Below, one piece after another: positions 29,437-48,299 of a DNA stretch of 48,299 nucleotides (position 1 is its first letter; the number at the start of each line of letters is the position of its first letter). The DNA lies in contig PKUD01000217.1 of the NCBI GenBank assembly GCA_002869695.1, forward strand, positions 1 through 48,299, read 5' to 3'. The position numbers and the translations under genes were made by a program. Below the pieces are notes generated by a model, which saw only the letters and a list, made by a program, of their open reading frames with translations, was not told the origin of the DNA and did no database searches. The stretch comes from Desulfuromonas sp. (GTDB lineage Bacteria; Desulfobacterota; Desulfuromonadia; Desulfuromonadales; Geopsychrobacteraceae).

Positions 29437-29979
29437 CTAGTTGAATTCAACCCTTCTGTTTTTAGCCCAAGCGATTTCATTTCTGTCGTTGGCAACCGGC
29501 ATCTCTTCTCCATAGCTGATAATAGTAAGGCGTGATTTATCGATGCCCAGTGAAGCAAGGTAGTTCATTACGGTCATTGCCCGATTCTCTCCCAGTGACA
29601 TGTTGTATTCATCCGAACCGCGATCATCGCAATGTCCTTCAATGCGAAGAGAATAGGTCGGATCTGACTTGAGCAATTTCGCATTTTTTTCAATCGAATC
29701 GATCGCAACAGGCGACAACTCATAAGAATCATAGGAAAAATAAACAGTCTCAAAGTCAATTCTTTCCAGCGTGAAGAGACCTGCCTCTTCCAGAGAAGCC
29801 TTTTCTTCAACGTTTACGGGAGGTGGCGAAGGTTCAACCTTGATCGGCTCATTGACCTCAACGGGTGTACTTACAGCGACATTCTCTGTCGGTACGTTTT
29901 TCTTCGCACAGCCCGTAAAGAGAACCAGGATGAGCAGCGTAGACATCACGTACAATAATCGTGGGACTTGTGGAATCAT
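29437..29979 (-). CDS. Pal-like OmpA-family peptidoglycan-associated lipoprotein
   Basis: A 180-residue outer-membrane lipoprotein. A signal peptide ends in the lipobox LFTGC, so the mature protein starts CAKKN. A proline-rich linker precedes an OmpA domain (about residues 75-180). It has the Pal pattern VYFSYDSYELSPVAIDSI, IEGHCDDRGSDEYNMSLGE, NRAM and NRRVEF, with the peptidoglycan-binding aspartate and arginine residues present. GAGGAGG fixes the ATG at 29979. It is preceded by a c-di-GMP riboswitch and a terminator, so its expression should respond to c-di-GMP. It follows the TolQR-type cluster, but no TolA or TolB is present. Confidence 0.93.
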   Translation of the reverse strand: MIPQVPRLLYVMSTLLILVLFTGCAKKNVPTENVAVSTPVEVNEPIKVEPSPPPVNVEEKASLEEAGLFTLERIDFETVYFSYDSYELSPVAIDSIEKNAKLLKSDPTYSLRIEGHCDDRGSDEYNMSLGENRAMTVMNYLASLGIDKSRLTIISYGEEMPVANDRNEIAWAKNRRVEFN

Positions 29980-30008
29980 AAATGCCTCCTCTGATAGTTT
30001 TTTATCTC

Positions 30009-30033
30009 CCAGGCATGCCTTATTGATGCCTGG
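30009..30033 (-). other. Hairpin in the Pal leader
   Basis: A perfect eight-base-pair stem CCAGGCAT/ATGCCTGG with a nine-base loop lies between the riboswitch terminator and the Pal ribosome binding site. It has no T-run, so it is not a terminator. It could stabilise the processed mRNA. Confidence 0.45.
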
Positions 30034-30050
30034 AATAGCGGTTCGAACGG

Positions 30051-30091
30051 AAAAACAAAAAACGCTCATCTGAATAACCGAAGATGAACGT
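30051..30091 (-). terminator. Riboswitch-associated intrinsic terminator
   Basis: On the minus strand ACGTTCATCT (30082-30091) pairs with AGATGAGCGT (30062-30071) with one G-U pair, followed by a T-run (TTTTTTGTTTTT). It lies about 45 bases downstream of the GEMM-I aptamer and 80 bases before the Pal start. This is the probable expression platform. Confidence 0.85.
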
Positions 30092-30134
30092 TTAATAAGG
30101 GCATTGACGCGCCTGATGCCTTTATGAGACGACC

Positions 30135-30220
30135 TATCACTTCGGCAACCCGGCTGTCCTTTATTCAGGACCCGTGGCTTTGCGTCACCAGATTTCTCTG
30201 GTTTTGCCCTTATCGGAATT
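30135..30220 (-). ncRNA. GEMM-I cyclic di-GMP riboswitch
   Basis: The minus strand carries the class I c-di-GMP aptamer core: AAGGGCAAAACC, a hairpin ACCAGA-GAAA-TCTGGT with a GNRA tetraloop, GACGCAAAGCCACGGG, a GTCCT/AGGAC stem, and AGCCGGGTTGCCGAAG. The base in the AGGG segment that distinguishes c-di-GMP from cGAMP binders appears to be G, favouring c-di-GMP. An intrinsic terminator follows. A nine-base segment inside the aptamer (30205-30213) is perfectly complementary to 30095-30103 downstream, offering an alternative fold. It should control the Pal-like gene. Confidence 0.88.
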
Positions 30221-30240
30221 AGTAACTCTTAATTTGCGAC

Positions 30241-30309
30241 TTATTCATCCGGTGCACGGATAGGATTAAAGGTTAACCGCCGCGCATTTATGCGTATTCT
30301 GAAAAACAT
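30241..30309 (-). CDS. Possible 22-residue peptide upstream of the riboswitch
   Basis: An ATG at 30309 has AAAGGAG six to seven bases upstream and opens a 22-codon frame ending in TAA at 30241. The peptide starts MFFRIRINARRL and ends IRAPDE, and is rich in arginine. It lies 50 bases after the polytopic membrane protein gene and about 20 bases before the aptamer. It could be a leader peptide or a small protein. Support is only the strong ribosome binding site and position. Confidence 0.45.
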   Translation of the reverse strand: MFFRIRINARRLTFNPIRAPDE

Positions 30310-31363: not shown

Positions 31364-32812
31364 TTACCCCGCCGGAAGGAAATCAATCGGATAAAGTATC
31401 GTTATCTTGGGAACTTCATCCTTCTTGCCGAAGTTAAACCTCTTGACCCGCGCAACAATTTTTTCGACCAATTCAGGTGATGCGAGATCGGTTGTCTCTA
31501 CCATACAGAGCGAGACCTCTCCCCCCGGTTCGATCGCCAGGCGCAGCAGCAGTTTGCCTCGCAGGGTCGGATCCTTGCGAAGTTCCTTGTTATATATTCG
31601 GTAGAGGGTCGCCTTGTAGCGATCGAAGACGATCTGGATTTCTTCGTCGGTCCGCGCCGGACCGGGGCCATCGCTGAGCGGACGTCCCTCCTCCTCTGTC
31701 AACCCGGCGACAGTGCTCTCAACGCGTGCAAAGGCTACACCTCCGATACGGTCGCCGTTGCCTCCGCTGCCTCCGAGTCCGAGGTTCCGGCTGACCGTGG
31801 CATTACTGATCCCTCCACTTGAACCGTTGGCCTGCATCGCCACCAATGAGCGTTGGGGTCGAGCGTGCCCGGCAGCCAGCGGAGCTTTGTTGCTAACCCG
31901 CGCTTCGGTTCCGAGTTTGGTGACAGGGGCTTCTTCCATCAGGTCCTTGAACGTATCCTTGAACGCCAGAACTCCGCTACTTTCAACCTTTTTACGTGCC
32001 GTTTTTTTGGCACCACTTGCGGTGGCTACTTTCGTCTCTTTTTCTACCTGCTTCTGCTTTGTCTTTTCAGGTTTTTTCGCTTCAGTTTTTTTCTTCTCAG
32101 GGTCGGGTGTCTTTTCCTTCTTGACCGGCTCGGGCAATGGAACCGGTTCCGGCGGTGGCGGTTCGTTCCTGACCAGCATCGCCAGTCGTTCTGGAATCTC
32201 GACCACGGTCTGCGATCGATCCGGGAGAGGAACGCTAATCATCGGCACAACGATGCCGAAAAAGAAGCTGAGCAGAAGTGCCACGAGAACTGAACGACGA
32301 AAATATTGCTCGGACTCCCCTTCTTTCGACCAGGGCATGATGATCGCGCGATAAGGAATGATTGAAACTTCGCGTTCGATGGCGAATTCATCCCTGCGCC
32401 GCTCTTCCCTGGCATAGGCGTCCATGACCTCGGCGTTTAATATGTCCAGTTGTTCAAAGCAAAGTTCGAGTTGTTCCCTGCAGGTCTGCTGCTTCTTCAG
32501 CTCATCGCTGATCTCCACCTCAAACCGATCCACCTGCGCGCGCAGGCGGTTGATATGCTCGGCAGGGTCATCAGCCGGGTTCAGTTCATCCCAAAAGAGG
32601 TTTTCAGCCTTCAACTCCGCTAACGCATCGAGGGCACTGCAGACATTCTGCAATGCATCGTAACGTTTTCTCTCTGCGGAAAAGACCTCCAGCTCTGCCT
32701 CAGCAACGCGTAGCTCACCCTCGAGAATCCCGATCCGACCTGATATCAGCTCGATCTGCGCGTTCAGAGGCTCCAATTCCTGCGCCAGTATGGATACTTT
32801 GTCAGAATTCAT
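31364..32812 (-). CDS. TonB-like AgmX/PglI-type energy transducer with N-terminal coiled coil
   Basis: A 482-residue protein in four parts. Residues 1-150 are cytoplasmic and predicted coiled coil, rich in glutamate and leucine heptads. One transmembrane helix lies at about 173-195 (SVLVALLLSFFFGIVVPMIS). A proline/lysine-rich periplasmic linker (EPPPPEPVPLPEPVKKEK) covers about 210-265. A glycine-rich stretch and a C-terminal TonB-like domain (about 390-482) follow, with YRIYNKELRKDPTLRGKLLL and IEPGGEVSLCMVE, as in Myxococcus AgmX/PglI (GltJ/GltG). It starts one base after the first TolR gene and probably couples the TolQ/TolR motor to outer-envelope partners. Confidence 0.87.
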   Translation of the reverse strand: MNSDKVSILAQELEPLNAQIELISGRIGILEGELRVAEAELEVFSAERKRYDALQNVCSALDALAELKAENLFWDELNPADDPAEHINRLRAQVDRFEVEISDELKKQQTCREQLELCFEQLDILNAEVMDAYAREERRRDEFAIEREVSIIPYRAIIMPWSKEGESEQYFRRSVLVALLLSFFFGIVVPMISVPLPDRSQTVVEIPERLAMLVRNEPPPPEPVPLPEPVKKEKTPDPEKKKTEAKKPEKTKQKQVEKETKVATASGAKKTARKKVESSGVLAFKDTFKDLMEEAPVTKLGTEARVSNKAPLAAGHARPQRSLVAMQANGSSGGISNATVSRNLGLGGSGGNGDRIGGVAFARVESTVAGLTEEEGRPLSDGPGPARTDEEIQIVFDRYKATLYRIYNKELRKDPTLRGKLLLRLAIEPGGEVSLCMVETTDLASPELVEKIVARVKRFNFGKKDEVPKITILYPIDFLPAG

Positions 32813-32813
32813 A

Positions 32814-33308
32814 CTAGCTCTGTGCGGCTTTCTGGATGACAGCCAGTGAGATCTTTCCGTAGCCCGAAAGGGTACAGGTTGACATGATCTTCTTCAGTAC
32901 GTTGAACGGAATCGTCTTATCAGCAAGGATGGTGATCTCCTTGCTGTCAGCGATCGTCCTGGTACTGATGCCGATGATATTCTGTTCCAGCAGGGCGAGT
33001 TTGTCTGAAATCGCATCCACCCTGTTACCCTTTGCTTTGCTGAGCTCCGCTGTTCCGACGACCGATTCTCCCTGAATCAGGACCGCTTCGGGGTTGACCA
33101 TGATGACCACCGTCTCGCGTGGCTTTGACTCTACGACCGAATCCGGCAGCTTGATTTGTTTGGGGGGCGAGAGGACTTCATTCGATCCCGAATTGGCCAG
33201 CAGGAAAAAGACCAGAATCGTGAATACGTCCATCAGGGATGTCAGGTTGAGGCCGGTAATTTTTTTTCTGTTACGCCCCATTCGTCTCATGCGTCGGGTA
33301 TCTCTCAT
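32814..33308 (-). CDS. TolR/ExbD-family motor protein (with transmembrane aspartate)
   Basis: A 164-residue stator-type protein with one N-terminal transmembrane helix and a periplasmic domain. The helix region GLNLTSLMDVFTILVFFLLA contains the conserved proton-path aspartate (residue 27). The periplasmic part ends with the ExbD/TolR-like VLKKIMSTCTLSGYGKISLA. GGAGA precedes the ATG, which overlaps the stop of the second TolR gene by four bases. With the TolQ-like protein it should form a proton-driven motor in the inner membrane. Confidence 0.92.
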   Translation of the reverse strand: MRDTRRMRRMGRNRKKITGLNLTSLMDVFTILVFFLLANSGSNEVLSPPKQIKLPDSVVESKPRETVVIMVNPEAVLIQGESVVGTAELSKAKGNRVDAISDKLALLEQNIIGISTRTIADSKEITILADKTIPFNVLKKIMSTCTLSGYGKISLAVIQKAAQS

Positions 33309-33799
33309 GGCGCGTCTCCAATCGATATATTGGGAAAGAGCAGCGCCTGCTGAACCTCGTCAGACCCCTCATCCCGAACGTCCCGTCCACGGACCGTGTC
33401 CATAACCTGAATGAGGTAGTCGTACTCGATATTCGGTTCCATCAGGACCGTTGCATCTTCCTTCTGCGGATATTTTTCTTTGACCCGAACGAGCAAGTCG
33501 GAGAGCTTCTGCAGATTGTAGCTCCCTTCTTCTTTGGGCAGTTTGGCGACCACTCGCGTCCCGTTGGCAAACTCCAGGCCATCACCTCGAACGATGATTT
33601 CGATGCTGAAGTTCGGTTTGTTCGCAACCGCCGCTGCAGAGGCCTCGGTCGGGACACTCAATTCGAGAATAGTCACGCGCGAGAACACCGCACTGATCAA
33701 GAGAAATGGCACCAGTACGACCATCAGGTTGAGAAAGGTCGTAATGTCAAGTTCGGGGACCTCTTTCGACCGCCGTCTGCTATGTCGTCGCCTGGCCAT
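33305..33799 (-). CDS. TolR/ExbD-family protein lacking the transmembrane aspartate
   Basis: A 164-residue protein with an arginine-rich cytoplasmic start and one transmembrane helix, ELDITTFLNLMVVLVPFLLI. Aligned with the neighbouring TolR, the proton-path aspartate is replaced by asparagine (residue 24). The rest of the pattern is kept, including a periplasmic domain of about 120 residues. It starts two bases after the TolQ gene and overlaps the next TolR by four bases. Two unequal TolR subunits beside one TolQ recall AglQ and AglS beside AglR in Myxococcus. It may be a structural partner rather than a proton carrier. Confidence 0.9.
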   Translation of the reverse strand: MARRRHSRRRSKEVPELDITTFLNLMVVLVPFLLISAVFSRVTILELSVPTEASAAAVANKPNFSIEIIVRGDGLEFANGTRVVAKLPKEEGSYNLQKLSDLLVRVKEKYPQKEDATVLMEPNIEYDYLIQVMDTVRGRDVRDEGSDEVQQALLFPNISIGDAP

Positions 33800-33801: not shown

Positions 33802-34455
33802 TCAGTTCGCCGGAAACTGGCGTTTGGCAGTATTGGAGATACTGTTCAGAGCCTTGACCGACGCCATCTCAAGGCTGTCCACAATCTGTCCGGTGGTCGA
33901 GGTCAGCTTTGCGTGGATGATCAGCAGGGGGATCGCCGCCATCAATCCGAAGGCCGTGGTATTCATCGCCACCGAGATGCTGGCTGAAAGCAGGTCAGCT
34001 TTCTCTGCCGGGTTGGCGTTGGCCACAGCGGTAAAGGCTTCGATCAGGCCCATGATGGTGCCCAGCAGGCCAAGCAATGTGGCAATATTGGATAACAGGG
34101 CGACATAGGGCGTACGTCGTTCTAGCTGCGGAATGATTTCCATCATGCTTTCTTCCATCGCAATTTCGATATCTTCACGACGTCTTACCGCTCCCTGACG
34201 TGCCAATCCCATGCCGAGCATCTGCGCGATGGTTGATTTGTCCTCGTTCACCACTTCGCGAGCCGTGTCAAAATCCCCTTCGCTTAAGAGCGGATGGATT
34301 TCTCCCCACATTCTGCGGTTTTCATTCCGGATACGCCCGAGCTGAACCCAGCGTTCCACGGCGATGGCCATGCCGAAAGCAAACACCAACAGGATGGGGT
34401 ACATGAACAGGCCACCCTTTTGAAAAAAACCGACCAGTGAATAGATGATTCCCAT
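33802..34455 (-). CDS. MotA/TolQ/ExbB-family proton channel protein
   Basis: A 217-residue inner-membrane protein with three hydrophobic segments: one near residues 15-35 (LFMYPILLVFAFGMAIAVER) and two after residue 110 (YVALLSNIATLLGLLGTIMG and TTAFGLMAAIPLLII). The pattern LLGTIMGLIEAF and SVAMNTTAFGLMAAIP is that of TolQ/ExbB/AglR. GGAGG lies upstream of the ATG, whose first base overlaps the preceding gene. It forms a motor with the two TolR proteins encoded directly downstream. Confidence 0.94.
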   Translation of the reverse strand: MGIIYSLVGFFQKGGLFMYPILLVFAFGMAIAVERWVQLGRIRNENRRMWGEIHPLLSEGDFDTAREVVNEDKSTIAQMLGMGLARQGAVRRREDIEIAMEESMMEIIPQLERRTPYVALLSNIATLLGLLGTIMGLIEAFTAVANANPAEKADLLSASISVAMNTTAFGLMAAIPLLIIHAKLTSTTGQIVDSLEMASVKALNSISNTAKRQFPAN

Positions 34456-34769
34456 TAGTTTATCCTCCCAGGCTTGTTAGTTGTGCTGACTTCGTAGAAG
34501 TCGAGCTGTCTTTTGAAAACGTCCCGATCCACAGGAACGTCATCTGCGTTCACTACAATATTCAGGCTGTTTTCCACCCCGATCTCTGAACTTTTCCAGG
34601 GAACGATGTAGAGCGATTTCGGTGCCTCATCGTTGCCGACAATGGACATTCCCGACAGCTCTTTGACTGACGGATCCGACCCGGGGTTGTCGTGCCGTTC
34701 GGTTTGTCCTGCCATCGCGACAAAGGGCAACAGCATAAAACAGACTGTCATCGCCAATTTGCTCATCAT
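34455..34769 (-). CDS. Small exported protein of unknown function
   Basis: A 104-residue protein with a clear Sec signal peptide ending AMA-G near residue 20. The mature part of about 84 residues is acidic and has no cysteine. It contains SGMSIVGNDEAPKSLYIVPW and a C-terminal DVFKRQLDFYEV segment. The ATG at 34769 has GGAGAG upstream; a start at 34799 overlaps the previous stop but lacks a ribosome binding site. It is locked between a TPR lipoprotein gene and tolQ. I recognise no family. Confidence 0.75.
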   Translation of the reverse strand: MMSKLAMTVCFMLLPFVAMAGQTERHDNPGSDPSVKELSGMSIVGNDEAPKSLYIVPWKSSEIGVENSLNIVVNADDVPVDRDVFKRQLDFYEVSTTNKPGRIN

Positions 34770-34795
34770 TTGCTCTCCGATCTTAATCGTCCGCT

Positions 34796-35485
34796 TCATT
34801 GGCCGAGGCGTAACTGCAGCTCGGAAATCCAGAGCTGTACATATTCATCCTCGGGGTTGAACTTTGCGTAGACAAGGTACTGTTCCAGGGCACATTCCAG
34901 ATCCCGCAGATAGAGATCGCAGAGGATGCCGAGATTTTTACGGAGCGGCAGGTATTCGGGAAAAACTTCAAGTGATTGTTCGTAAATATCCCGCGCTTGC
35001 AAAAAGCGCCCTGCTCCGCTGAGCAGCAAACCGTATTCCTGGCTGGCCACGGGATGGCCGGGAACCAGCTGCAGAGCGGCATTCAGATGGTCCTCTGCAA
35101 GCTCCGGGCGGTCGATGTTGCGATAAGCCATCGCAATATCGACATGGGGGGCAGAAATGTCGGGGGCTTGTTCAATCACATCGTCAAACTGCTCAATCGA
35201 TGCGTCGTAGTCTTTCGCAAGAAACAGATTCACCCCGTCGTTGAACTGTTTTTGCAGTTCTTCACTCAACATTTCCGCCTCATTGAGTGCAAAACCCAGT
35301 CGCCCGTCTGTAAAACGGTTCACCGTTGTGCCCTGTTGCATAACCGGCTCTTCTTTGACGATGTCGGGTTTTGTCGCAACTCCCGTCGCGCACCCGCCCA
35401 GTACCAGCAACAAGGCAGTTACGAGAGCTCTCTCGCTGCACCATCGGCAGGGTTTTCGCAGTTTTTCTCTACCTGTCATGTTCAT
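34796..35485 (-). CDS. TPR lipoprotein of the motor cluster
   Basis: A 229-residue lipoprotein. The lipobox LGGC lies near residue 32 after a hydrophobic stretch. From about residue 75 there are four to five tetratricopeptide-type repeats, for example APHVDIAMAYRNIDRPELAE and YGLLLSGAGRFLQARDIYEQ. It resembles the Myxococcus TPR protein AglT (GltE) in size and position. GGAG precedes the ATG, which overlaps the large TPR gene by four bases. It probably serves as an outer- or inner-membrane-anchored scaffold in the periplasm. Confidence 0.88.
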   Translation of the reverse strand: MNMTGREKLRKPCRWCSERALVTALLLVLGGCATGVATKPDIVKEEPVMQQGTTVNRFTDGRLGFALNEAEMLSEELQKQFNDGVNLFLAKDYDASIEQFDDVIEQAPDISAPHVDIAMAYRNIDRPELAEDHLNAALQLVPGHPVASQEYGLLLSGAGRFLQARDIYEQSLEVFPEYLPLRKNLGILCDLYLRDLECALEQYLVYAKFNPEDEYVQLWISELQLRLGQ

Positions 35486-38400
35486 CTTTCGCTCCGTATC
35501 TCGTGACTCAAACGTGTGTCTGAATCCGAAAAATCTGTGCTATTGGCGTCGAGATGCATCCGGTCGGCCCGCGACAAGACTTCGGTTACAGGTTGCGTCT
35601 GTTCGCGCGGAGAGTCCGGCACCAGCTGATTTTCCGCCTCAGTCCCGATTTTATCTTCCGGCATGATCGGTTCGGTGGGCCTCCCGGAAGTATGGTCCTG
35701 CATGTCAGGGAGGGTGCTGTAATCCGTTTCAGGGGAATCAGCATTCTGCGATGCCTCGTTCAGCGGTTCTGCTGATGTCGAACCATCTACGTTTCCCGGG
35801 AACGACGTCTGGCGGCCGGTAGGTGTTGCCGCAACTACTCCGTCAAGCTGCGTCCAACCCTCATCGGCCGTCAGCTCGAGAGCAGGGACCATGTTTCCGG
35901 TCGGCGTTACCGGCGACGTGCCTGCGATAAGGTAACTGAAGGTTTTCAACGAAGCGATAATGGCTGGTTGTTCCACAGGCCTTGCGTAGCGAGCCGGGAT
36001 AAACAGGGCCAGGCGTGCCAGACTTTTTTCGACCCACCGGTTGTAGACTCCGATAGCGATCAGTTCAAGGTTGCTCTGATGGACGGCAATGGCTTTCTCC
36101 TCGAAGGGGTATGCCTGTTCCTCTATCGCCAGTTCGTATTCTTCGCTCTCCAGAGGACTCAGCCCTTCAGGCCGCTCGGACTCCGTCAGTGATTTGCTGA
36201 AGTGGGCATAAATTTCTGCAAGATAGTAGGTAGCGGCGGCAGTGACTTCGCCGATTTCATAATCGATGAGCGTCGTGAACTTCTGCGTTGCCGTCTTCAT
36301 CAGCTTCTGTTTCTTGCGTAAATTCACCTCGAACGGTTTGACGAGACCGACGGCTACGAAACTGAGATAGGACTTCTCGGCGAGAACCAATGCGGCAAAA
36401 CCTGCAAGGTAGCGGGTTCTGTCGGTGCGAGAAGGCCCGGCATCGGCGTCAAGCTCTACGATCCGGCCCAGCTCCGCCAGGTATTCTTTGTCTCGCTTTT
36501 GCCCCTTGAGGAGTTCGGCTATTTTGCTACGTGTTTCGATGTTGGGTTCAAGCGGTTGTGGGAAATAGGTGACAAAACGGCGATAAACCACCAGTGCCTG
36601 GTCCGTATTTGCACACTTCTCATAGAGTTCCGCGGCAATCATCAGCGCGTCACGGCGGAGGTCGTCGTTATCCGACTCGGCTTCTACACGCCCGAACTCA
36701 CCGGCCGCCAGTTCATACTGAGCAGCCTCACGGTAGACAAATGCGATCTTTTTGGTCACGTCTTGCTGTAATTCGTGTCCCGGGAAGTTTGTACGGAAGC
36801 CAGTTAAAACCGTAGCCGCTTTCTTCCAGGCCTTGATTTGTATCAACGCCGCAGCCGCATCGTAGTCCGCCGTCGGCCTGATTTTTGATGTTGGCGCCAT
36901 ACTCGCTACCCGGAGAAAGTGTTCAGCCGCGGTAGAGAAGTCTTCGATAGTTCTGGCCTGCTCACCCTGCCGATAGATCGATGCCGCGAGGTTGTCATTC
37001 AGCGTTTGCCGAGATGGGTCCTCATCCGGAAGCAGCTCCAGAACTTTGATGTACGCTGCTTCCGCCTCATCAAAAACCTCGAGCTCATAGCAGGAGTGAG
37101 CAACGACCAGCCATGCGGACCGCGTGACATCGGATTCAGCGTCAGGGAACATGTCGAGCAGTGTCTGACCTGCGTCGACCGCATGTTCGAATTCTTCAAG
37201 GGCATAAAGATCATCCGTTGCTGCTCCGAGGACGATCGCCGCCTTATTATGTTCAGGGAAGGTCTCAGCGAAGCTGAGCGACGACCGGACCACCTCGCGT
37301 TTGACGGATTCCTGCTGCTGTTCCGGGACCAGGGAAAGATGCTGCCGATAGGCGAAAACCGCTGCATATCCGGCCTTGGGCGACAGACCGTGGGTGGGGT
37401 AATGGTAGGCGGTTTTTTCATACTCTACCGCTGCTGTACCGAAATCGCGATGTTCCAGCAACAGGTCTGCCAGCTGGTAATTGATGGTTGGCGACTCTTG
37501 ATCCTGCGGAAAGGAAATCAGGAACTGGCGGTACCAGTGCTGCGCCTCGTTGAAATTCACCCGTTTCCCGTCCTTGCGCTTTGGGTTCTGGTAAAGCGCG
37601 TGATAATGATTCGCCAGGTCTGTCAGGTTGGTTTTCAGGTGGATGAGGACTTCAGGGCGCTCCAGAGGTTCGAAATGCTGCCAGTATTCCGCCGTCAGAC
37701 CGTACCTGTTTGCATAGGTTTTCTTCGCCTCGATAACCAGGCTGGGGAAGCCTCCGGCCGTGTTTATCTCGACGATACGCATCTGGAACAGAGGTGCCTT
37801 CTTGTGGAACGGGTTCCGGTTTAGGAACGCATGGTAGGTCTCGACGGCGTCACTGTAGCGACGCTTGGTAAAGAAATATTCACTCAGGTTGGCGTAGACA
37901 TTGCTCTCGTAGCTGCGCTCGCCGTAACGGTCGAAGTAATCGACCACCGCAACGGCACCACCTAAATAGGAAAAGCTCAGACTGATCACGCGAAACGTAT
38001 CATCCATCCGTTTCCGTTCCTGTTCGTCTTCAATCTGGTCGAAGTCATAGCCGACGGAAAGTTTATAATCAAGCAGGCCGATATAGCGATGGATCGCGTC
38101 TTCGTACAGTTCCTGTTTGTAGAACGTCCAGCCCAGCTTGTAGAGGGCCAGCGGAAAGAATGAGGAACCGACACCCAGGTCGACAATGTCCGTATAGGCT
38201 TCTTCCGCATCGAGGTAGCGCCTGTGGGTGAAGAAATATTCACCGCGCCTGAACTGAACTTCGTCGAGATAGCGCGATTGCGGATATTCCCGGACCAACC
38301 GGTTCATAACCTGCATCGCCTCTTCAGTGCGACCCAGTTCTTCATAGGCACGACACATCTGGTAGAGGACCTGGTCGTTGCGTTGGTAAAGCGGATATTC

Positions 38401-38916: not shown

Positions 38917-40801
38917 CACTTTCCCCCTTCTCGGCCTCTGCTCTGACAGCGCGGTCATAACTGTCCGCCATGGCAAAGCGTGCCTTGACCTGAAGCTCCA
39001 GGAGATGTTCACGTCGGCTCGTTAATTCATCAACCGCCATGTCCTCCAAAACCCGGCCCTGCCTGGTCTGGATATGCTGTGCCCTGGTCAGGGCCGCTGC
39101 GATCCGCATGCGCTGAAGACGGATTGTTTCGTTGTACCCCTGGAAGCTTTGCGTCGCTGCCTGACGGACGCGGACAAAGTCGTTGTAACGATTCCTCAGT
39201 TCTTCAATATCCTGGTCCAGGGCATGCAGGTTGCTGTATGTTTCTGTTAGTCGCGTGTCGTAATCGGTCCGGATTTTCCATAACAGGAGTCCTCTGAGCC
39301 GTCGGACCCGTGCCTGGGCGTCAACGGGGGGGCTGCCGCCCACTGCGTTGAACGTCTCTTCGAGGCGATCGATCCTGTCTGCAACGATCCTTTCTTCGGC
39401 CGTGGCGAGGTAATCGGGCCTGGGTGCCACCAGCATGGACTGCAAACGTTGCGCGATCCGTTCCCGTTGTTCCAGGCGGAGTCTCATCAGTGAATCGAGC
39501 TGTCGAAAACGGTTGTCGATAGCAGGAATCAGGGGTTGGTAGTAGGCCTTCCGTTGTTCGATGAGTTCCTCGTAAGCATCCAGATCGAGCTGCCATCGCT
39601 CGAGTTTGTCCAGCAGTCGCTCGAGATCTAGATAGTTGTGCAGCGATTGCTGAAATTCGTGAGATGCCAGCAACTCAAGCAGATAATAGGTCTCAGGTGT
39701 TTCAGGCAACTCCCGCAGGCGGATGGCCCAATTGGCATCACTCTTTACCTCATCGCGGACCAGGGCTTCGAGGAAGTGCCCTTCCCGGATCAATTCGATC
39801 GATTCATCAAGTCTGTCGATTTCAGCGCCGAAAGAGTCCAGTGCCGATCCGTAAAGCAAGGCGGCTTTGCTGAATATGCCGAGCTTGCCGTATGCGTAAG
39901 GGGCTGCAAGCAGGGCCTCCTGTACTGCGCTGTCGGTTACCTGTCGCTCAAGCATCAGATTCCAGGGGACCAGCGCCCTGTCAAAAAGTTGAAGAGAGGC
40001 ATCAGCCCAGCCGGACTTCAGTAAGGCCTGACTGGAAAACGGGCCGTCTATGCGGACCCGATCGAGTACCCTTTTGGCTGCGTTGAAATCGCCCTCTTCC
40101 AGTAATTTTTCGCCGAGGAACAGGTTCGCCTTGTCCTTCAGTGCCTTCACGACCGGATCATCACTATTTATCTGGCCAACCAGATCAAGCTGATAACGCC
40201 CCTCCTGCTGTTGACCGTCTCTCATCAGGGCGATTCCCAGGTTGTAGCCGACAAACCCTTTCAGGGATGCTTTCTCCTGAATGCCCATCAGAACATCCAC
40301 AGCGTCTGTATAACGGCCATTCGCCATCAATACCTGGGCGATAAGAAAGTCCAGGTCCGCGCGAATTTTTTCTGCCACTGGTGGGCTGATGCGCTCCAAG
40401 GCATGCAGCGCGTTAACCGGTTGGTCCTTCTGGAAATAGATCTTTGCCAGGCGGTAGATAGCTTCGTTGCGCACATCGTGTTCAACGTCGCCGTTAATCA
40501 CCTCGGTAATTGCGCGGCCGGCCCGTCGATGCATGCGATAGGCCAGTTCGAAGTCACCCACCGCGAACTCTGCCAGACTGAAGTGATGGAAGAGAGAATC
40601 TAACTCCGGTTGATCAAGGCTGTGATGCTGACCCAGTTCGGTGTCCAGGCGTGAGATGGCATCAAACCATTCCTCTTGAAACGCAGAGTAGAGGGCCTCT
40701 CCGAAGTACAGATCCTTCAGCTCGTCTGGCGCACTCGTGCTGGCTGCCTGCGCAGAGTAGGCGGTCAATAGAATTAATATGAATACCAGATACTTAGTCA
40801 T
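38909..40801 (-). CDS. Exported TPR and coiled-coil protein
   Basis: A 630-residue periplasmic protein. A signal peptide (MTKYLVFILILLTAYSAQAA) precedes TPR-like repeats through about residue 330 (VRNEAIYRLAKIYFQKDQPV, VGYNLGIALMRDGQQQEGRY). A long predicted coiled coil follows to the C-terminus, rich in arginine, glutamate and leucine. The ATG at 40801, with GAGAAAG upstream, is chosen because it yields the signal peptide; the frame begins earlier at a TTG. It overlaps the large TPR gene. A periplasmic scaffold role is likely; no named family was recognised. Confidence 0.82.
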   Translation of the reverse strand: MTKYLVFILILLTAYSAQAASTSAPDELKDLYFGEALYSAFQEEWFDAISRLDTELGQHHSLDQPELDSLFHHFSLAEFAVGDFELAYRMHRRAGRAITEVINGDVEHDVRNEAIYRLAKIYFQKDQPVNALHALERISPPVAEKIRADLDFLIAQVLMANGRYTDAVDVLMGIQEKASLKGFVGYNLGIALMRDGQQQEGRYQLDLVGQINSDDPVVKALKDKANLFLGEKLLEEGDFNAAKRVLDRVRIDGPFSSQALLKSGWADASLQLFDRALVPWNLMLERQVTDSAVQEALLAAPYAYGKLGIFSKAALLYGSALDSFGAEIDRLDESIELIREGHFLEALVRDEVKSDANWAIRLRELPETPETYYLLELLASHEFQQSLHNYLDLERLLDKLERWQLDLDAYEELIEQRKAYYQPLIPAIDNRFRQLDSLMRLRLEQRERIAQRLQSMLVAPRPDYLATAEERIVADRIDRLEETFNAVGGSPPVDAQARVRRLRGLLLWKIRTDYDTRLTETYSNLHALDQDIEELRNRYNDFVRVRQAATQSFQGYNETIRLQRMRIAAALTRAQHIQTRQGRVLEDMAVDELTSRREHLLELQVKARFAMADSYDRAVRAEAEKGESDE

Positions 40802-40906
40802 AGCTTTCTCGAACCTGTCTTCACTCTCCAGGGGGCACGGCTGGCCTGCGCGGCATGCCGTTCTGCGGTAACGGGCCGCCAATCTTTGCGGCAAATCCAG
40901 TCATAC

Positions 40907-41428
40907 CTACCAGTCCTGGACGCTGATCGCCTGTTGCGCCAGGGTGATATTGAAGATGCCAGGCCGCTCATCCTTGGACACTGAGAAAGTCTGTGATTTG
41001 TGTAACTCTTTTCCCTCACGGGACTGGCCGCGATAGGTGACTTCCACGCTATGTTCACCGACTTTCACATTCCCGGTGTAGATACGTTGAACCCCACCCA
41101 TCCTTAGTGCTTCCAGTTCTTTGAATGTATAAAGATGGTGGGTTACCGATTTCCCATCCAACTTGATATCGACCGAATCAAGACGCAGTTGCTCTCCGTC
41201 GGCCAGAGCCAGGAAGATCGAGATCTGCGTATGGGATGGGTAAAGCAGCTTCTCTTCAAGCTCGTTGAGTTCCGCCGAAATGGCGAGGACATCACTCTTG
41301 ATCTCCTGAACCTGTTCGTCCAGCCCTTTGATCTGGCGATCGGTGGCTTGCTTGCCCTGAGCAGTACCGGTAATAAGCAGCAGCCATACCGACATACCGA
41401 GAATGATCATTCCTGGGGTATTGAACAT
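40907..41428 (-). CDS. Exported coiled-coil/beta protein of unknown function
   Basis: A 173-residue protein with an N-terminal hydrophobic signal sequence. A short coiled coil follows (LDEQVQEIKSDVLAISAELN). The C-terminal region is beta-rich (ISIFLALADGEQLRLDSVDI, VKVGEHSVEVTYRGQSREG). The ATG at 41428, with AGGTGA upstream, is preferred to one at 41455. It lies 29 bases after the giant OmpA-barrel gene, so it may be a periplasmic partner of that protein. No helix-turn-helix is visible, so any transcription-factor label would be wrong. Confidence 0.75.
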   Translation of the reverse strand: MFNTPGMIILGMSVWLLLITGTAQGKQATDRQIKGLDEQVQEIKSDVLAISAELNELEEKLLYPSHTQISIFLALADGEQLRLDSVDIKLDGKSVTHHLYTFKELEALRMGGVQRIYTGNVKVGEHSVEVTYRGQSREGKELHKSQTFSVSKDERPGIFNITLAQQAISVQDW

Positions 41429-41457
41429 GATTTTCACCTGTCTGAATGCGTACATAG

Positions 41458-44400
41458 TTAATATTTCCCGATCAGATTGACGAACAGCCCCTGGTGGTCA
41501 TAATCAAGGTCGGTCAGGTCGTCCGAAAAGTCGCTGAAGTTATAACCAAGTCCCAATTTGACGTGATTCCCGAAATGTCGATACAGGCCAGCCAGGATGC
41601 CGCTCCGATGATCTTGCGCATCAGGGAGTTCTAGCATCCTCCCTTCGATCAGAGCGTCCCAGCGGTGCACGAAATGCCAGTCCGCCCGAACAATGTACAG
41701 ATGTGCTCTGCTGGTGAAAAAGTCACGATCAGCCCGGTCCAGGCTGACCTCACTTCGGCGGTAAGCATATTTGCCACCCAGTGCCCAGCGTGCCGTCAGT
41801 TCATACATGACATCGATAGCGGCGATATGGCTTTTCTGGATAGCCGAGGACATCGTATCCGTGCCGGAGGATTGATCGGCGGACGGAACATTGTAGAAAA
41901 AGGTGTACTTGAGCAGTGTGTTGATGCGGTCGTTGTCAACCGGGCGATAGGCATAGCCGATAACTGCCTCGGTATAATCCCCGTCATAGAACTGACCAAG
42001 GGAGCTATCACTGTGTGAAAAGTTGACCTTGCCAATCAGGTTCCAGTCGGGGGTCAACTTGTACTTAATGCTGTTTTTTACCAACCAGGTCGTGCGCTTT
42101 TCTGTGCTGGTGTCCGGCTGCTCGGTCTTGTCCCTCCGGTATTCCAGGGCGCTGGCGAGCTTGAGTCTCTTAAATCCGTACCCGGCGCTTATCCCGGCGG
42201 CGGTCCTTTCCAGTTCGGCGGCGGTCTGGTGATCCACCAGGGTTCCGAAGTCGAGACTGGCTCCGCAATTGAGCCGATCTGTAGGAGACAGATCGACCCC
42301 GGTGGAATGCATCAGCCCGGTCGGCACGTCACCGTGAGTGTAGCGCTCTTCGAGGTAAACACTGGCGCTGTCGGAGTAGCGGGTGCGGAACCCGGAGGCA
42401 ACTGCCCCTTTTCTGGATCGCAGACCGTTGTCGCTACGGTCATTCTCGAGGGCGTAATTCAGATAAAGCGTGGTCCGGTCACTATAGAGATACTCAGTTC
42501 CGACCTCGGCACCCGTGCCGAGGTCGCCGCCGGACACTTCACCATTCACCCTGAAGCGGTCATTGACACGGTAGCCGCCCCCTGCCCCCAGTCGGCCGTT
42601 GTCATCTCGATTACCGGAGGTCTCGAGGGAGTCCTGGGCAAACCCGTATCCTGTCCAGCGCCCAAGGGAATCGTAGCTCAGGCGGAGGACTGCGTCAGTC
42701 CGTTTGCCCTCCACCTGGGTAAGTGGCACCTGCAGCGAGCGATCCTCGCGGGTGTCGTGCCGCAGACCCGACCCGATCACCCAGTGCTCACTGGCCTGAT
42801 AATCGACGTTCAATTCACCGGCTTCGGTATCAAGACCCTGCCGCTGCTCGCGCTTGTCGACCTTGACGTTCACTGCCAGCTGTTCGGTGATCGGCATCTC
42901 CAGCATACCGCCAACCAGCGAGGTGTCCTTCTCTGTGAGCAGCCCCGGAGCGGAATAACCGGCTTCGAGGTCCTGATTGTACAGTGTCAGGCGGCCGCGT
43001 CCCTCCCTGAAAAGGTCGCTGAACGACAAACTGGCATCGGCACGCCACGCATCAGCCATGACATCCGATCCACCAAGGTCCGCTGACGGGTTGAAGTTGA
43101 ATCCACCGTCGAGTGAGTCGGTTTCAAGCTGACCCGGTCCATCGCTGCGACCGGTTTCAAGCTTGATCCACGATTGTGTCGATACCCTCAGGGTCACATC
43201 CGCCCCATGCAGGCTGTTTTCACTTCCTGACTCATCTTCTTCACTGGCGGTGGCTCCCACCCTGATGTAATCATTGAGCCAGTACTGAGCTCGGCCACCG
43301 GCCGTCAGCGTATCCGGTTCATCGAACCCCGGGGTGAACTCATAACGGGCCACCAGGTACACGGGATTCCCGCCGGTCGCCTCGCTTTTCACCAGCAGAC
43401 CGTCGGCCTCCGTAGATTTAAGTGGTTCAGTGAGCAGAATGCGTCCCTGCAGGTAATCGATATCGTAATCGAGGGCAGCGATCAGATTCTTCACGCCCAG
43501 TACCATGCCTGAATCCTTGTCGCGCATCTCGATGCGCAAGCGCTCGGAGCCTTCGAGAATATCCTGACGGCGAAGATAGTAGAGCGACCCGCCGGTTCCG
43601 CGGAAGTCATCGCGACCGGCTACGGTTCCAGGTTCTGCGGCGAAGCCGTCAAACTCCAGGCGCTGTTCTCCGAATCGGGTAGTGGTCAACGTCTGATAAT
43701 GCAGGTTTGCGCCATAGAGTCCGCGGTCCACGTGCACCAGGGAATTATCGGTATAACCGACCTTGAAGTTGCCCCAGAGACCATAGTTCCGGTCTTTTTT
43801 CAGCTTGACGTAGAACTTGCCCAGGGTCGGTGCGTCCTCCTCGACGCTGCTGTCGTCGCCAAAGGTCGGAAACTGGTGGTCTGGATCGATCCGACGGAAC
43901 AACGCCTCTGGTGACTTGTCCAGGAAGTTGCTGAAAATCTCGTCAAACGGCCCTTCCCGCGTGTCGGCGCTGGCCGTCAAACTCCAACCGGAACCGAACT
44001 TGCCCCTGGTGTAAAACGCCAGGCGTCCCTGAACATCAACATCATCGCTATACTGCGGTTTGTCCGGGGAGAGCAGTTCGGCCGGGCCGTTGGTTTCATT
44101 GGCGGAAAGGGTGAGATCGGCGATACCGACGGTAAACCAGTCATTCCTGTCAATGGCAAGGTCGCGCAGGTAGAGCTCGCCATTTCCCGCGTCATCGAGG
44201 ACAGCGAGTTCGACGGTATGTAAACCGTTCGGCAGGATTTCTTCGGCGGCAAACCGACCCTTGGCATCCACCGGTACCGGGTGTCCGGCGAGCCAGACGT
44301 CGTGTCCTGCAGGTATTGCATTTCCGGTCGCTTTGATGAGACCTCCCTGCAGCGGTATATTGCGCCGGGCAATTCGGCTTTCACCGTATCCGGCCAACAG

Positions 44401-46557
44401 TTCCGACCGGCTATTTTGCAGTTCGTATCGCGTATCGAGTTGCCCGACGATCCACAGCGGCTGGGGTATCGTTTCATCGAAGTGCCCCTGTTTGCCGTAG
44501 ACGCGAACCAGGTATTTCAGGTCCAGACCCGGCGTCGGGACGGAGGTGAGTGCGGGAGTCCATTCCGCACGTCCCAGGGCGTCCATTTCGATTACCTCGA
44601 AAGGCAAATCGCGCACCGACTGCTCAGCTGTGTAGATTCTGACTTCGGCCCGGTTGATGAAGCTCCGATAGTTGCTGTAAAGGGAAAACTGCACCCGGTT
44701 CTCTGCAAAATCTGTTTCCGGCAGGTCCTGTGTACTGATCGTGCGCGGCCACGCAGTGACATTGAGGCGCGGTTCGAAGCTCAGGCTGTCATGCTTGAAC
44801 GACACCTGCGCCTGATTTAGGGCCAGATCGGTACAGCGCTGCACATCCCTGACTCCCTTGTTCGGGTCATCGAGTGGTTGACCGTCAATACTGATGCGCA
44901 TCTGGTTTAAAGAGAAAGGATCCGCCGTCAGGATCTCGCGGCTGAGGCGGCTGACTTCAACACCCTCATAGTCATCGAGGGTCAAGAGTTCATCATAGAC
45001 AACCTGGATTTCCACCCGCGAAATATCGGACTCAATGAACCCGGCGTTCACGACATCGTCGGACTGGACGAAGCCGCGTCCCTCAAATTCGACCTGAGAA
45101 TCCGACAAATCCATCAGGTCACGGACGACAGTCATTGCTCTGTGTGCCCGGGCCGTCGACCAGCCGATATCGTCACCGTAGATCGCAGCAGTCCGGCGAT
45201 TGAGTCGCTCATTACTGGTATAGCCGACAAACCTCAGGCGGACATTGTCTTTATCACTGAGTTCGGCCATGACCCGGTGCATATGGGTAACATCTTCGGC
45301 TTTAACCTGCGGATCTCCCTGTTCGAACAGAATCGGAGGGATCTCGCCCGACGGCGAGTGATAGACCCTGCTCACCGTTTCAGCGCCGGCTGATTCAGGG
45401 CAGATCTGCGGCTCATCAGGAAGGTCCTGCAGGGGATCGTCGTGCCAGAATTCAATCTCGATACGGCGATTCAAAGATCGTCCTTTAGGAGTGTCGTTGG
45501 TCGCTACCGGGTGCGTCGCCCCCCTCCCCTCGCTGGCAAGGGCGGCGTTGGGTAATCCCAGAGCATCCTGAACGGCAAGAGCGGCACGCCGAGCGACGGC
45601 CTTCGACAGACCGAGATGATTGCCATAGATGCGCTGCTGCCGGCCTGCCAGGGGGGTATTGTCGGTATAGGCGATAAACTTGATCTGGACGTCGTCGTTC
45701 CCACGAAGATTCGTGCGGGCCTGCCTGACCTGTTCCAGGAATGACTCCGGAACATCCAGCAACCCTTCATCGTAGTGCAGTGGAGCCAGCAGGTTTTTAA
45801 TCCGGGCCCGATGGGAGTGACCGTCCTTATAACGCAATTTACAAACAGTTTCAGTCCTGCACACTTTGACGCGATTAACGACACGGGGGATAACGACTTC
45901 TTTTTCAACCAGTTTTTCGCCTATCAGGTCGTACCAGACCTCGACTTCGACGCGCCTGTTGAGCGCACGCCCCTGTTCAGTTGTATTGCTGTCCAGCGGT
46001 TGACTGTCCCCCAGCCCTTCATAGGAGATCGCTTCCGGGGGGAGATGGAGGGCGGCCTGGCAGTATTCAGCTGTCGTTCCGGCCCGCTCCCGGGACAGGC
46101 CGACATTATCTCCATAGACTGCTGCGAGGTCGTCACTGAGTTGCTGGGAGTCGGCGTGACCAATAAAGTGCAAACGTACGTTGGCTCGATCGCGCATACT
46201 GTCGAGAACGTCACGCAGCTTCACCAGGTACTCGTCAGGGATCTGCGCGTCCCCTTCACGGAAATGTACCGGTGGCACCAGGTTCGCAAGTTTGACAGTT
46301 TCAATATCCGGTTCAACAACCTGACGTCGTTCCACGGTGTCGCCCTGGTCTTCATCGAACAAGGAAGAGTCCAGTATCCATGGCGTGAAGGTCCGATCGA
46401 CGGGCAGGTGTGCTTCGGTCGCTTCACCGCGTACGGCAGCATCCCTGGCTCCCGGACCGGACTGCCCCTGAGACAAGACATCAACGGCTGCAGAGGCTGC
46501 CGTTCCGGGCAGCAGCAGAAGAGAAAGACTCATTATGATGATGCAGCGTTTGATCAT
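41458..46557 (-). CDS. Giant outer-membrane protein with three OmpA domains and a C-terminal beta-barrel
   Basis: A 1699-residue exported protein. The signal peptide ends AASA near residue 23. Three tandem OmpA-like domains lie at about 92-210, 257-374 and 405-523, each with a pattern like GLSRERA..ALNRRVEVEVW. The third is degenerate, lacking the terminal NRR. A middle region of beta-sandwich-like sequence follows. From about residue 850 a long series of alternating aromatic and polar strands suggests an outer-membrane barrel, ending LIGKY with a terminal aromatic. The start is uncertain: a TTG at 46611 and a GTG at 46599 are also in frame. The peptidoglycan-binding domains and barrel would bridge wall and outer membrane. 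Confidence 0.82.
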   Translation of the reverse strand: MIKRCIIIMSLSLLLLPGTAASAAVDVLSQGQSGPGARDAAVRGEATEAHLPVDRTFTPWILDSSLFDEDQGDTVERRQVVEPDIETVKLANLVPPVHFREGDAQIPDEYLVKLRDVLDSMRDRANVRLHFIGHADSQQLSDDLAAVYGDNVGLSRERAGTTAEYCQAALHLPPEAISYEGLGDSQPLDSNTTEQGRALNRRVEVEVWYDLIGEKLVEKEVVIPRVVNRVKVCRTETVCKLRYKDGHSHRARIKNLLAPLHYDEGLLDVPESFLEQVRQARTNLRGNDDVQIKFIAYTDNTPLAGRQQRIYGNHLGLSKAVARRAALAVQDALGLPNAALASEGRGATHPVATNDTPKGRSLNRRIEIEFWHDDPLQDLPDEPQICPESAGAETVSRVYHSPSGEIPPILFEQGDPQVKAEDVTHMHRVMAELSDKDNVRLRFVGYTSNERLNRRTAAIYGDDIGWSTARAHRAMTVVRDLMDLSDSQVEFEGRGFVQSDDVVNAGFIESDISRVEIQVVYDELLTLDDYEGVEVSRLSREILTADPFSLNQMRISIDGQPLDDPNKGVRDVQRCTDLALNQAQVSFKHDSLSFEPRLNVTAWPRTISTQDLPETDFAENRVQFSLYSNYRSFINRAEVRIYTAEQSVRDLPFEVIEMDALGRAEWTPALTSVPTPGLDLKYLVRVYGKQGHFDETIPQPLWIVGQLDTRYELQNSRSELLAGYGESRIARRNIPLQGGLIKATGNAIPAGHDVWLAGHPVPVDAKGRFAAEEILPNGLHTVELAVLDDAGNGELYLRDLAIDRNDWFTVGIADLTLSANETNGPAELLSPDKPQYSDDVDVQGRLAFYTRGKFGSGWSLTASADTREGPFDEIFSNFLDKSPEALFRRIDPDHQFPTFGDDSSVEEDAPTLGKFYVKLKKDRNYGLWGNFKVGYTDNSLVHVDRGLYGANLHYQTLTTTRFGEQRLEFDGFAAEPGTVAGRDDFRGTGGSLYYLRRQDILEGSERLRIEMRDKDSGMVLGVKNLIAALDYDIDYLQGRILLTEPLKSTEADGLLVKSEATGGNPVYLVARYEFTPGFDEPDTLTAGGRAQYWLNDYIRVGATASEEDESGSENSLHGADVTLRVSTQSWIKLETGRSDGPGQLETDSLDGGFNFNPSADLGGSDVMADAWRADASLSFSDLFREGRGRLTLYNQDLEAGYSAPGLLTEKDTSLVGGMLEMPITEQLAVNVKVDKREQRQGLDTEAGELNVDYQASEHWVIGSGLRHDTREDRSLQVPLTQVEGKRTDAVLRLSYDSLGRWTGYGFAQDSLETSGNRDDNGRLGAGGGYRVNDRFRVNGEVSGGDLGTGAEVGTEYLYSDRTTLYLNYALENDRSDNGLRSRKGAVASGFRTRYSDSASVYLEERYTHGDVPTGLMHSTGVDLSPTDRLNCGASLDFGTLVDHQTAAELERTAAGISAGYGFKRLKLASALEYRRDKTEQPDTSTEKRTTWLVKNSIKYKLTPDWNLIGKVNFSHSDSSLGQFYDGDYTEAVIGYAYRPVDNDRINTLLKYTFFYNVPSADQSSGTDTMSSAIQKSHIAAIDVMYELTARWALGGKYAYRRSEVSLDRADRDFFTSRAHLYIVRADWHFVHRWDALIEGRMLELPDAQDHRSGILAGLYRHFGNHVKLGLGYNFSDFSDDLTDLDYDHQGLFVNLIGKY

Positions 46558-46607
46558 CGATTCCATCGATTCAAAAAAGGTAGCAACCCTATGGTCCACG
46601 TCAGTCC

Positions 46608-48299
46608 TCAACGCGGGCCGCCCCGGCGCCAGTAGATTTCACTTTCTATGTCGAGCCGATACGTCCGGGCCGACTGCTCCCAGCGACCGGCAATCTCATT
46701 TTTCAGAGACTTGAGACGCTTGTTGACCAGCTGTTCTTTCTCAATATCCACCAGATATGACAGGCGCAGAACGGCCGGCGCGTCATCCAGTACCTCGAGC
46801 AGCCGGTCAAGTTTCGACCTCCACTGCAGACGGAGTGTCGTCGAGTCAGGTTCGAAGACGCCATCAGACAGGTCGAGGCTCACCACGCGGTGGATTGTCG
46901 TGGCGAAATTGAAGCGCATCATCTTGCCGCGTGTCGCACGTTGCACCCGGGGATTTTCGCTAATAATCCGATAACCGCTCGGCAGGCTGCGTTCGTCCAG
47001 TTTCAGGATAAAGTTGCTGCCCCGGTCCTCGTCTGGGACGACAGCACAGGCGATGTGGAAGCGTCCGTATGGATCGGTCGTTGCGATCAGTCCGCGTGCC
47101 GTTACCAGGCGTGCTCCTGACAGGCCGAACTCGTTCCCGTCCTGACGACCGTTCAGATTATGGTCAACAAATACTTTGCCGACCACATCGGTACAGTCAA
47201 AGACCGAATCCGGGGCGACCCTCACGGTTGCGGTCGCCTCTCCGGATGCAGCACCTCCGGTAATCATGCTGATGACCTGAGCCCGGTTGACATAATCGCC
47301 CTCGGCTACCCCGGAACCAACCACCAGCAGCAATTGCAGCGTGTGCTCGGAATTAACCTGCAGGTCCAGGTTGTCCCAAACAAGGTCACGGCCGTTGACG
47401 AGCGGCTCCAGGGCGACCCCATCCAGGCGGGCCGAACCCTCTACGTATTTGAAGCCGGCCGGGAAACGATCCAGGATGGCAATATCGAAGAGCGGTGCGG
47501 CAAACAGGTTCCTGACTTTGATCGTATAGGGGACCAGTTCTCCCCTCCGGACATTGATCAGCGATGAGGTTTTGCTGATCGCCACCGCGCCGTCCAGCAC
47601 CGGATCGATAGGGATATGGTTGTTGAAGATCTGGCTCTGACCGGGCAACAACGCGTCGCTCAACGTCAGGTTCAGGTGATAGCGTGTGCCGTCCGACCGA
47701 GCCATGACAGGCATCGGAGGGATTGATGCGGAAGCACTCACCTCGCAATAGTCCGTGGTGGCCGGGATCGCGTCATCGACACTGCCAAGGCAGTCGGGAA
47801 CAGAGAATGGATCTGAAGGATCACTGCTGGGCGGAATGATCTGCGAGGGCATCGCGACGTATCCGCTTGCGGGGGGCGTAACTTCGATGGCATAGCTGTC
47901 TCCCGCAACACAGGATGTTTCACCGAAGCTCAGATCGAACTTGTAGAAGCCATCCTGGGCAGTGACCTGGTTCTGTTGTGTCGGGGCATCGAAACAGTCT
48001 CCCGGCAGCAGATCCCCTGTTGTTACATTCACCAGCGCCAGGCTGGCCCCGGCGACAGGGGTGCGTAAGACCGAATCGTAAACAGCACCGTTAGGCGTGA
48101 TCGGCAGGTTCAAACCCTCCTCATGGACGCCCGAGCCCACGCTGATTCCGCTGATCTGTTGGGGACCATCGATAAAGGGGGAATCGGCCGTTCCGAGCGA
48201 GGGCGTGTTCAGGCCGGCACCTGGAGCCCTGAAGTGCAGCTCGTAAAGCTGAGGGCTCCCTGTATTGGGGACCAGGCCACCGAGTCGATAACTGCCATC
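46608..48299 (-). CDS. Giant DUF11/SdrD-repeat surface protein, C-terminal part (5' end off window)
   Basis: The last 563 residues of a larger protein; the frame is open to the window edge without a stop. In order it shows part of an SdrD B-like domain (DGSYRLGGLVPN), a carboxypeptidase-regulatory-like beta domain, and a DUF11 domain (VAISKTSSLINVRRGELVPY) with TIKVRN. A further SdrD B-like domain (VVGKVFVDHNLNGRQDGNEF) follows. The last 110 residues look like a divergent OmpA fold. Such repeats form rods on surface proteins. It stops three bases inside the possible TTG start of the OmpA-barrel gene, so the two are likely coupled. Confidence 0.85.
   Translation of the reverse strand, partial: DGSYRLGGLVPNTGSPQLYELHFRAPGAGLNTPSLGTADSPFIDGPQQISGISVGSGVHEEGLNLPITPNGAVYDSVLRTPVAGASLALVNVTTGDLLPGDCFDAPTQQNQVTAQDGFYKFDLSFGETSCVAGDSYAIEVTPPASGYVAMPSQIIPPSSDPSDPFSVPDCLGSVDDAIPATTDYCEVSASASIPPMPVMARSDGTRYHLNLTLSDALLPGQSQIFNNHIPIDPVLDGAVAISKTSSLINVRRGELVPYTIKVRNLFAAPLFDIAILDRFPAGFKYVEGSARLDGVALEPLVNGRDLVWDNLDLQVNSEHTLQLLLVVGSGVAEGDYVNRAQVISMITGGAASGEATATVRVAPDSVFDCTDVVGKVFVDHNLNGRQDGNEFGLSGARLVTARGLIATTDPYGRFHIACAVVPDEDRGSNFILKLDERSLPSGYRIISENPRVQRATRGKMMRFNFATTIHRVVSLDLSDGVFEPDSTTLRLQWRSKLDRLLEVLDDAPAVLRLSYLVDIEKEQLVNKRLKSLKNEIAGRWEQSARTYRLDIESEIYWRRGGPR

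Follow-up and report, generated by a model that had tools for sequence, protein, structure and literature searches.

The window, that is, the whole 48,299-nucleotide stretch of DNA analysed here, is the entire contig C139 of a 3.3 Mb Desulfuromonadia genome, and the eleven closely spaced genes running from 48299 to 31364 on its minus strand form one conserved unit, as judged by sequence comparison. There is about an even chance that their products are the eleven parts of a proton-driven trans-envelope machine, which would act on a giant adhesin displayed at the cell surface. Outside myxobacteria and Bdellovibrio, no function has been known since 2011 for the ancestral core of the motor that drives gliding in Myxococcus, and one large branch of this core is encoded with an adhesin and a barrel, which would give it a specific role, that of exerting force on a surface adhesin. 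If this is true, gliding, secretion-linked motors and the control of adhesins (SiiAB) would be joined under one principle.

Organisation of the locus

The first-pass annotation of this DNA had claimed a packed set of minus-strand genes, and every gene named in it was found, with the close spacing verified. The protein families that it proposed are supported by Pfam and NCBIfam, namely MotA/TolQ, ExbD/TolR in two copies, an AgmX/PglI C-terminal domain, TPR, OmpA with a barrel, and DUF11. Several open reading frames are over-long as called, as they include start codons upstream of the probable true starts. The block begins with the gene of a DUF11/CLIPPER fibrillar adhesin (46608..48299, minus strand, as are all features given below). 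The giant DUF11 protein is then present as claimed, but its gene is truncated at the contig end, 48299, leaving the C-terminal 563 aa visible. It is followed by the gene of an OmpA-barrel outer-membrane protein of 1717 aa (41458..46611, probable start at about 46557) and by the nine genes of the core, of which the first encodes a small exported protein of 182 aa with a conserved coiled coil and beta domain (40907..41455).

Two more genes had been counted in the cluster, a polytopic membrane protein (30362-31291) and a Pal-like OmpA lipoprotein (29437..30069). Both are present, but as neighbours outside the conserved set: none of 40 relative stretches matches the former, two of them match the latter weakly (36%), and because of this absence or near-absence they were excluded from the system. 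The Pal-like gene has its own c-di-GMP-I (GGC) riboswitch aptamer, found with Rfam at 30140..30217 and followed by a hairpin and a T run at about 30093-30065; the first-pass annotation had overlooked it. This riboswitch with its terminator-like hairpin (30065-30217) is an unusual regulator for a Pal-type protein.

Conservation of the core and its linkage to the giant proteins

When genome contigs were searched with aligned sequences of the 661-aa TPR protein, 80 core loci were obtained. The core runs as a small exported protein, the GltC-, GltD- and GltE-like TPR proteins, a second small exported protein, TolQ, TolR, TolR and the GltG-like transducer, and this nine-gene order and strand are constant in 80/80 loci, wherever the retrieved sequence spans them. 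The loci come from Desulfuromonadia, other Desulfobacterota, Gammaproteobacteria (Woeseiaceae, Microbulbifer, Thiohalomonas) and Betaproteobacteria (Sideroxyarcus, Nitrosomonadales), besides a few metagenome bins labelled as other phyla, whose labels are not to be relied on. When looked for in this core subfamily, neither an unconserved gene order nor unrelated neighbours of the motor genes were found. A second copy of TolQ lies 3' of the transducer gene in several loci (L055:12940-14188, L061:12871-14190, and also L089, L091, L096, L103, L105 and L120), and shares about 73-75% identity with the window TolQ in the loci where this was measured; in L055 and L061 the next gene is that of a Pal-like lipoprotein.

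Regarding the two giant proteins, the OmpA-barrel gene is immediately upstream of the core in 36 of the 80 loci, with the DUF11 giant ahead of the barrel where the sequence extends. It is not upstream in the other 44, from which 20 gamma- and betaproteobacterial genomes were followed: 18 have the core, then the DUF11 giant (1,627-4,859 aa), then the barrel gene, directly adjoining, while one of the remaining two has the giants on another contig and the other a contig end just past the core. There are thus two block orders, the giants preceding the core in Desulfobacterota and following it in Gamma- and Betaproteobacteria, and the recurrence of the same eleven parts in permuted order argues against mere operon inertia.

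The same association is seen genome by genome. Among 146 Desulfuromonadia genomes, the 26 with a high-identity core TPR protein (the source genome counted) are the same 26 with a barrel more than 60% identical; the sole other strong core match among the 146 (G043, 47%) comes with no orthologous barrel and no giant adjoining the core. Likewise, among 274 Gammaproteobacteria, the 8 with core matches above 600 bits are the same 8 with a barrel protein of about 1,720-1,820 aa, one of these barrels sitting inside a longer open reading frame. Pairwise distances of the barrel and the transducer correlate with a rho of 0.91 (delta) and 0.89 (gamma/beta), which matches the values between motor genes, and joint inheritance or shared ancestry contributes to this correlation. 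In Microbulbifer sp. YPW16 (L207, L195) the adhesin-barrel pair is tandemly duplicated after one core, with adhesins of 4,367 and 3,495 aa and barrels that score equally.

The pair and the core also occur apart. Barrels about 37-45% identical to that of the window are found in seven Desulfuromonadia genomes without the core, in which no AgmX/PglI protein was found above the cut-off; in four of the seven (the four that were read) the DUF11 and barrel genes are adjacent, and these four barrels align to one OmpA domain, versus three in the window protein. Conversely, about 50 further Gammaproteobacteria have weaker relatives of the core TPR protein, and in the three such divergent cores that were read (L211:9461-18449, L212:3613-12553 and L213:9230-14743) the gene order is kept with other neighbours, L213 having a recognisable start of the nine-gene set, and no giants were found beside them. 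Since these divergent forms lack the giants, the core is not specific to adhesins; as far as sequences tell, it is a reusable chassis, of which the adhesin-barrel pair marks one branch. Such cores amount to a second type; among the genes next to the one in L211 are those of an SH3-like protein, a thioredoxin-like protein and a small exported protein.

Motor, transducer and periplasmic proteins

TolQ, a TolQ/AglR-like proton-channel subunit (33802..34455), and the two TolR/AglQ/S-like axle subunits all score over the Pfam cut-off, and they are separate from the Tol-Pal proteins (contig C48) and an ExbBD-like pair (C83) of the same genome. Alignment of the two TolR proteins gives a fixed difference between them: the second (32814..33308) has the channel aspartate, Asp27, as do 64/64 homologues, and the first (33305..33799) has Asn24 at the aligned position, as do 66/66. 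This Asp/Asn pattern is also present in the divergent cores, and the Tol and Exb proteins of the source genome have Asp. In Myxococcus, AglQ and AglS are both described with the channel Asp (PMC9389320), and the D28N substitution in AglQ abolishes proton conductance (PMC3858216). An obligate TolR(Asp)/TolR(Asn) heterodimer is then favoured, because two Asn subunits paired with each other would hardly conduct protons. The invariant pair bears on the question of a TolR-like heterodimer, which is listed as open for AglQ/AglS (PMC9389320).

The GltG-like transducer (31364..32812) has a cytoplasmic coiled coil, one TM helix, a periplasmic linker and an AgmX/PglI C-terminal domain, the last matching NF033768 (AgmX/PglI tail) with 55 bits against a cut-off of 40. 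It matches the GltG model with an E of 1.8e-12, below the equivalog cut-off, and GltJ more weakly than GltG. No Pfam match to an FHA domain was found in it at E<=0.05, and the conserved His in the TM region (SHLS motif of TonB/TolA) is absent from 62 transducers.

The three TPR proteins match the GltC/D/E set in size, signals and order. The GltC-like protein (38909..40894, probable start 40801) and the large GltD-like lipoprotein (35482..39012, probable start 38916, lipobox LTGC) are assigned by size and position, and the GltE-like lipoprotein (34796..35485) matches the NCBIfam GltE model weakly (E 1.7e-6). That two of them are lipoproteins, as had been predicted, agrees with the lipobox-like signals of their homologues (59/65 for the small TPR protein and 69/79 for the large one). 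Looking for counterparts of Group A (GltA, B, F, H, I, J, K), we found the weak GltJ tail match and a small exported protein in the gltF position (34455..34799), which has the conserved motif SGMSIxGNxEAPKSLxIVPWKSSExG. The proposal of an Agl/Glt-like motor and TPR set with different outer partners is upheld overall, except that the likeness to GltJ is weaker than that to GltG.

The giant adhesin

The surface protein is built like a fibrillar adhesin, as read from its complete relatives of about 1,630-4,860 aa. These comprise a signal peptide, an N-terminal region that is unique, DUF11, DUF7507 and DUF7619 domains in varying number, which form a probable CLIPPER stalk, and about 560 conserved residues at the C-terminal end. 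The fragment in the window covers one conserved CLIPPER domain (residues ~235-363), an SdrD-like stretch and a C-terminal domain modelled as beta-alpha-beta-alpha-beta. DUF11 now bears the name CLIPPER; it is the domain that builds the stalks of fibrillar adhesins and has a Lys-Asp-Asn isopeptide bond within the molecule (PMC12617251). The modelled last CLIPPER domain superposes on 9ifr with a Z of 12.5 and an rmsd of 2.7 over 117 aligned residues, a match tied with those to many Ig-like adhesin and integrin domains. Its putative isopeptide triad, K243-D277-N338, is invariant in 20/20 sequences and has a spacing close to that of Lys715-Asp748-Asn806 in the solved CLIPPER domain; formation of the bond is a prediction. 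The C-terminal 110 residues of the adhesin showed no clear relation to OmpA domains in a profile comparison (probability 1.2%, E 0.045). There is also a faint similarity in sequence (E 0.2) between residues ~238-310 and GhpA (9flp), the giant grappling-hook protein of Aureispira.

The OmpA-barrel protein

The 1717-aa protein has three OmpA-like domains, of the peptidoglycan-binding type, at about residues 110-225, 280-392 and 428-545, followed by an Ig-like region and a C-terminal barrel. Residues 571-1717, modelled from 27 sequences, have about 40 predicted strands in the C-terminal part, the confidence of the model being middling (pLDDT 68.8, pTM 0.46). The fold matches obtained with Foldseek and VIA-align are outer-membrane barrels in general, with SprA being one among many and in the Foldseek list only. 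No specific relationship to SprA, considered on account of the motif 'DYDIDYLQGRILL', is claimed, with no Pfam SprA match, no PDB sequence match and generic fold matches. A third group of proteins, of about 1,900-3,300 aa and about 25-31% identical over part of the barrel, is present in many Desulfuromonadia (L081, L082, L083, L072 and others), including the source genome, on C201. In a gammaproteobacterium (G277:C2:460726-463992), a barrel of the family lies within an open frame of 11,777 aa.

c-di-GMP riboswitches

Of the 14 Desulfuromonadia loci with a readable adhesin leader, 13 have one to four c-di-GMP-I aptamers, above the Rfam gathering score, ahead of the adhesin gene (in L045 this gene is split by a frameshift), and such a riboswitch was found in one of the ten gamma- and betaproteobacterial loci searched. 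Membership in the Rfam family is compatible with either c-di-GMP or cGAMP as the ligand. L062:9894-10397 has three tandem aptamer-hairpin units that are nearly identical to one another and may act as a steep or multi-step switch, L068:9989-11034 has four tandem riboswitches, and in L047 the aptamer is followed by a terminator-like hairpin of 18 pairs. The window has the single riboswitch ahead of the Pal-like gene, and its adhesin leader lies beyond the contig end.

Proposed function and alternative explanations

In the preferred reading, TolQ and the TolR(Asp)/TolR(Asn) axle would form a 5:2-type motor, whose force would reach the OmpA-domain barrel through the periplasm by way of the GltG-like transducer and the TPR lipoproteins. 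The adhesin would point outward with its N terminus, be held by its C-terminal domain at or beneath the barrel, and be pulled, moved or tensioned after its display. High c-di-GMP would then result in a controlled, energised attachment, and possibly in slow surface movement. The proposed analogues are AglRQS-Glt acting on CglB in Myxococcus and the SiiAB motor acting on the giant adhesin SiiE. Gene content and conserved linkage support the proton-driven envelope machine with a surface protein that the first-pass annotation had envisaged; the linkage is read directly from the loci, and from it we infer the mechanism. A more detailed form is put forward tentatively, as a possibility somewhat against the odds: an asymmetric-axle, c-di-GMP-gated proton motor would tension or move an isopeptide-strengthened fibre by way of a peptidoglycan-anchored barrel, and this would be the task of one branch of the core complex that gave rise to Myxococcus gliding.

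The motor could instead serve export, with the adhesin threaded N terminus first through the OmpA barrel and the motor and TPR chain powering its passage, in a manner similar to the T9SS. The unit does encode a motor and TPR lipoproteins along with a very large barrel and a giant surface protein, the approximately 40 modelled strands are of the order of the 36 in SprA, and the T9SS offers the precedent of a 5:2 motor that works for secretion and for surface adhesins alike (PMC13104615). However, the barrel has no sequence relation to SprA in Pfam or the PDB and generic fold matches, and related adhesin-barrel pairs occur without the core, making export unlikely. Such a pair seems to manage without this motor, but might use another one (Tol or Ton), which would be compatible with motor-driven export. 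Tension, retraction or movement of the adhesin is the more likely of the two, since related pairs occur without the motor and since AglRQS-Glt-CglB and SiiAB-SiiE are precedents of action on a displayed adhesin.

It is improbable that the unit drives true gliding through focal adhesions, as in Myxococcus, with the CLIPPER adhesin in the place of CglB. The motor and the GltG-like transducer are relatives of those of gliding, the TPR set and its order are as in the 2011 core complex, and a surface adhesin belongs to the conserved unit; nevertheless, the FHA domain is missing from the transducer in the Pfam search, and control by c-di-GMP riboswitches suggests a sessile programme. Stabilisation of the envelope as in Tol-Pal, where the OmpA domains would tether the outer membrane to peptidoglycan with the adhesin as a passenger, would account for the TolQR-like motor, the OmpA domains and the adjoining Pal-like gene, but is still more doubtful, as the genome has a separate Tol-Pal locus with TolB (the only TolB_N match, on C48), the cluster has no TolB, and its patchy presence (27 of 146 genomes) is unlike that of a housekeeping system. 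The movement or assembly of a polysaccharide coat is the least probable, for, although Nfs, which acts with AglRQS on Myxococcus spores, is the best-studied non-motility relative of the Glt set (PMC3169522, PMC3858216), the conserved unit has no gene for polysaccharide synthesis or export and its constant partner is a protein adhesin.

Comparison with known systems

The preferred reading, a motor acting on a displayed adhesin, touches several described systems. No published account of the whole eleven-gene unit was found in the open-access literature searched. As described by Luciano et al. in 2011, an AglRQS/GltDEGC 'core complex' of unknown function is clustered in Geobacter and Gammaproteobacteria (PMC3169522). 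The suspicion of an undescribed relative of gliding or Tol machinery is then half correct: TolQ, two TolR, the GltC/D/E-like TPR proteins and the GltG-like transducer, clustered in relatives of Geobacter and in Gammaproteobacteria, are the motor and TPR half known since that work, whereas the linked adhesin and OmpA3-barrel, the c-di-GMP riboswitches and the Asp/Asn axle go beyond its main text, which gives seven genes plus one compared to the nine constant here (PMC3169522).

The Agl-Glt machinery of Myxococcus xanthus with CglB has in common with the unit a proton motor, a TonB-like transducer, TPR periplasmic proteins, an outer-membrane platform and a surface adhesin. Besides the FHA domain, which was not found in the transducer here, and GltA/B/H/I/J/K, whose counterparts were not recognised in the unit, the two differ in the adhesin, a giant CLIPPER fibre here and a vWA protein in CglB, and in the channel Asp, present in both AglQ and AglS (PMC9389320) but in one TolR here. 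The unit is not classed as a Myxococcus gliding machine because the FHA domain and the second channel Asp were looked for and not found.

In Salmonella, the SiiAB motor is needed for adhesion rather than secretion. SiiAB-SiiE is similar to the unit in having a 5:2-class proton motor (grouped with type I secretion in PMC12204202) that works for one giant adhesin of Ig-like repeats; however, SiiE exits by type 1 secretion and SiiAB has no TPR set or OmpA-barrel partner, so the analogy is functional only. The same holds for the type 9 secretion and gliding system of Bacteroidota (GldLM, SprA, SprB), which also combines a proton motor, lipoproteins, a very large barrel and a surface adhesin, but with a barrel for which no sequence relation was found and a motor of a different family. 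Finally, the adhesin shares with the CLIPPER fibrillar adhesins (PMC12617251) the signal peptide and the stalk repeats with the isopeptide triad, differing from them in having its own conserved C-terminal domain and in being encoded with its own motor and OmpA-barrel partner.
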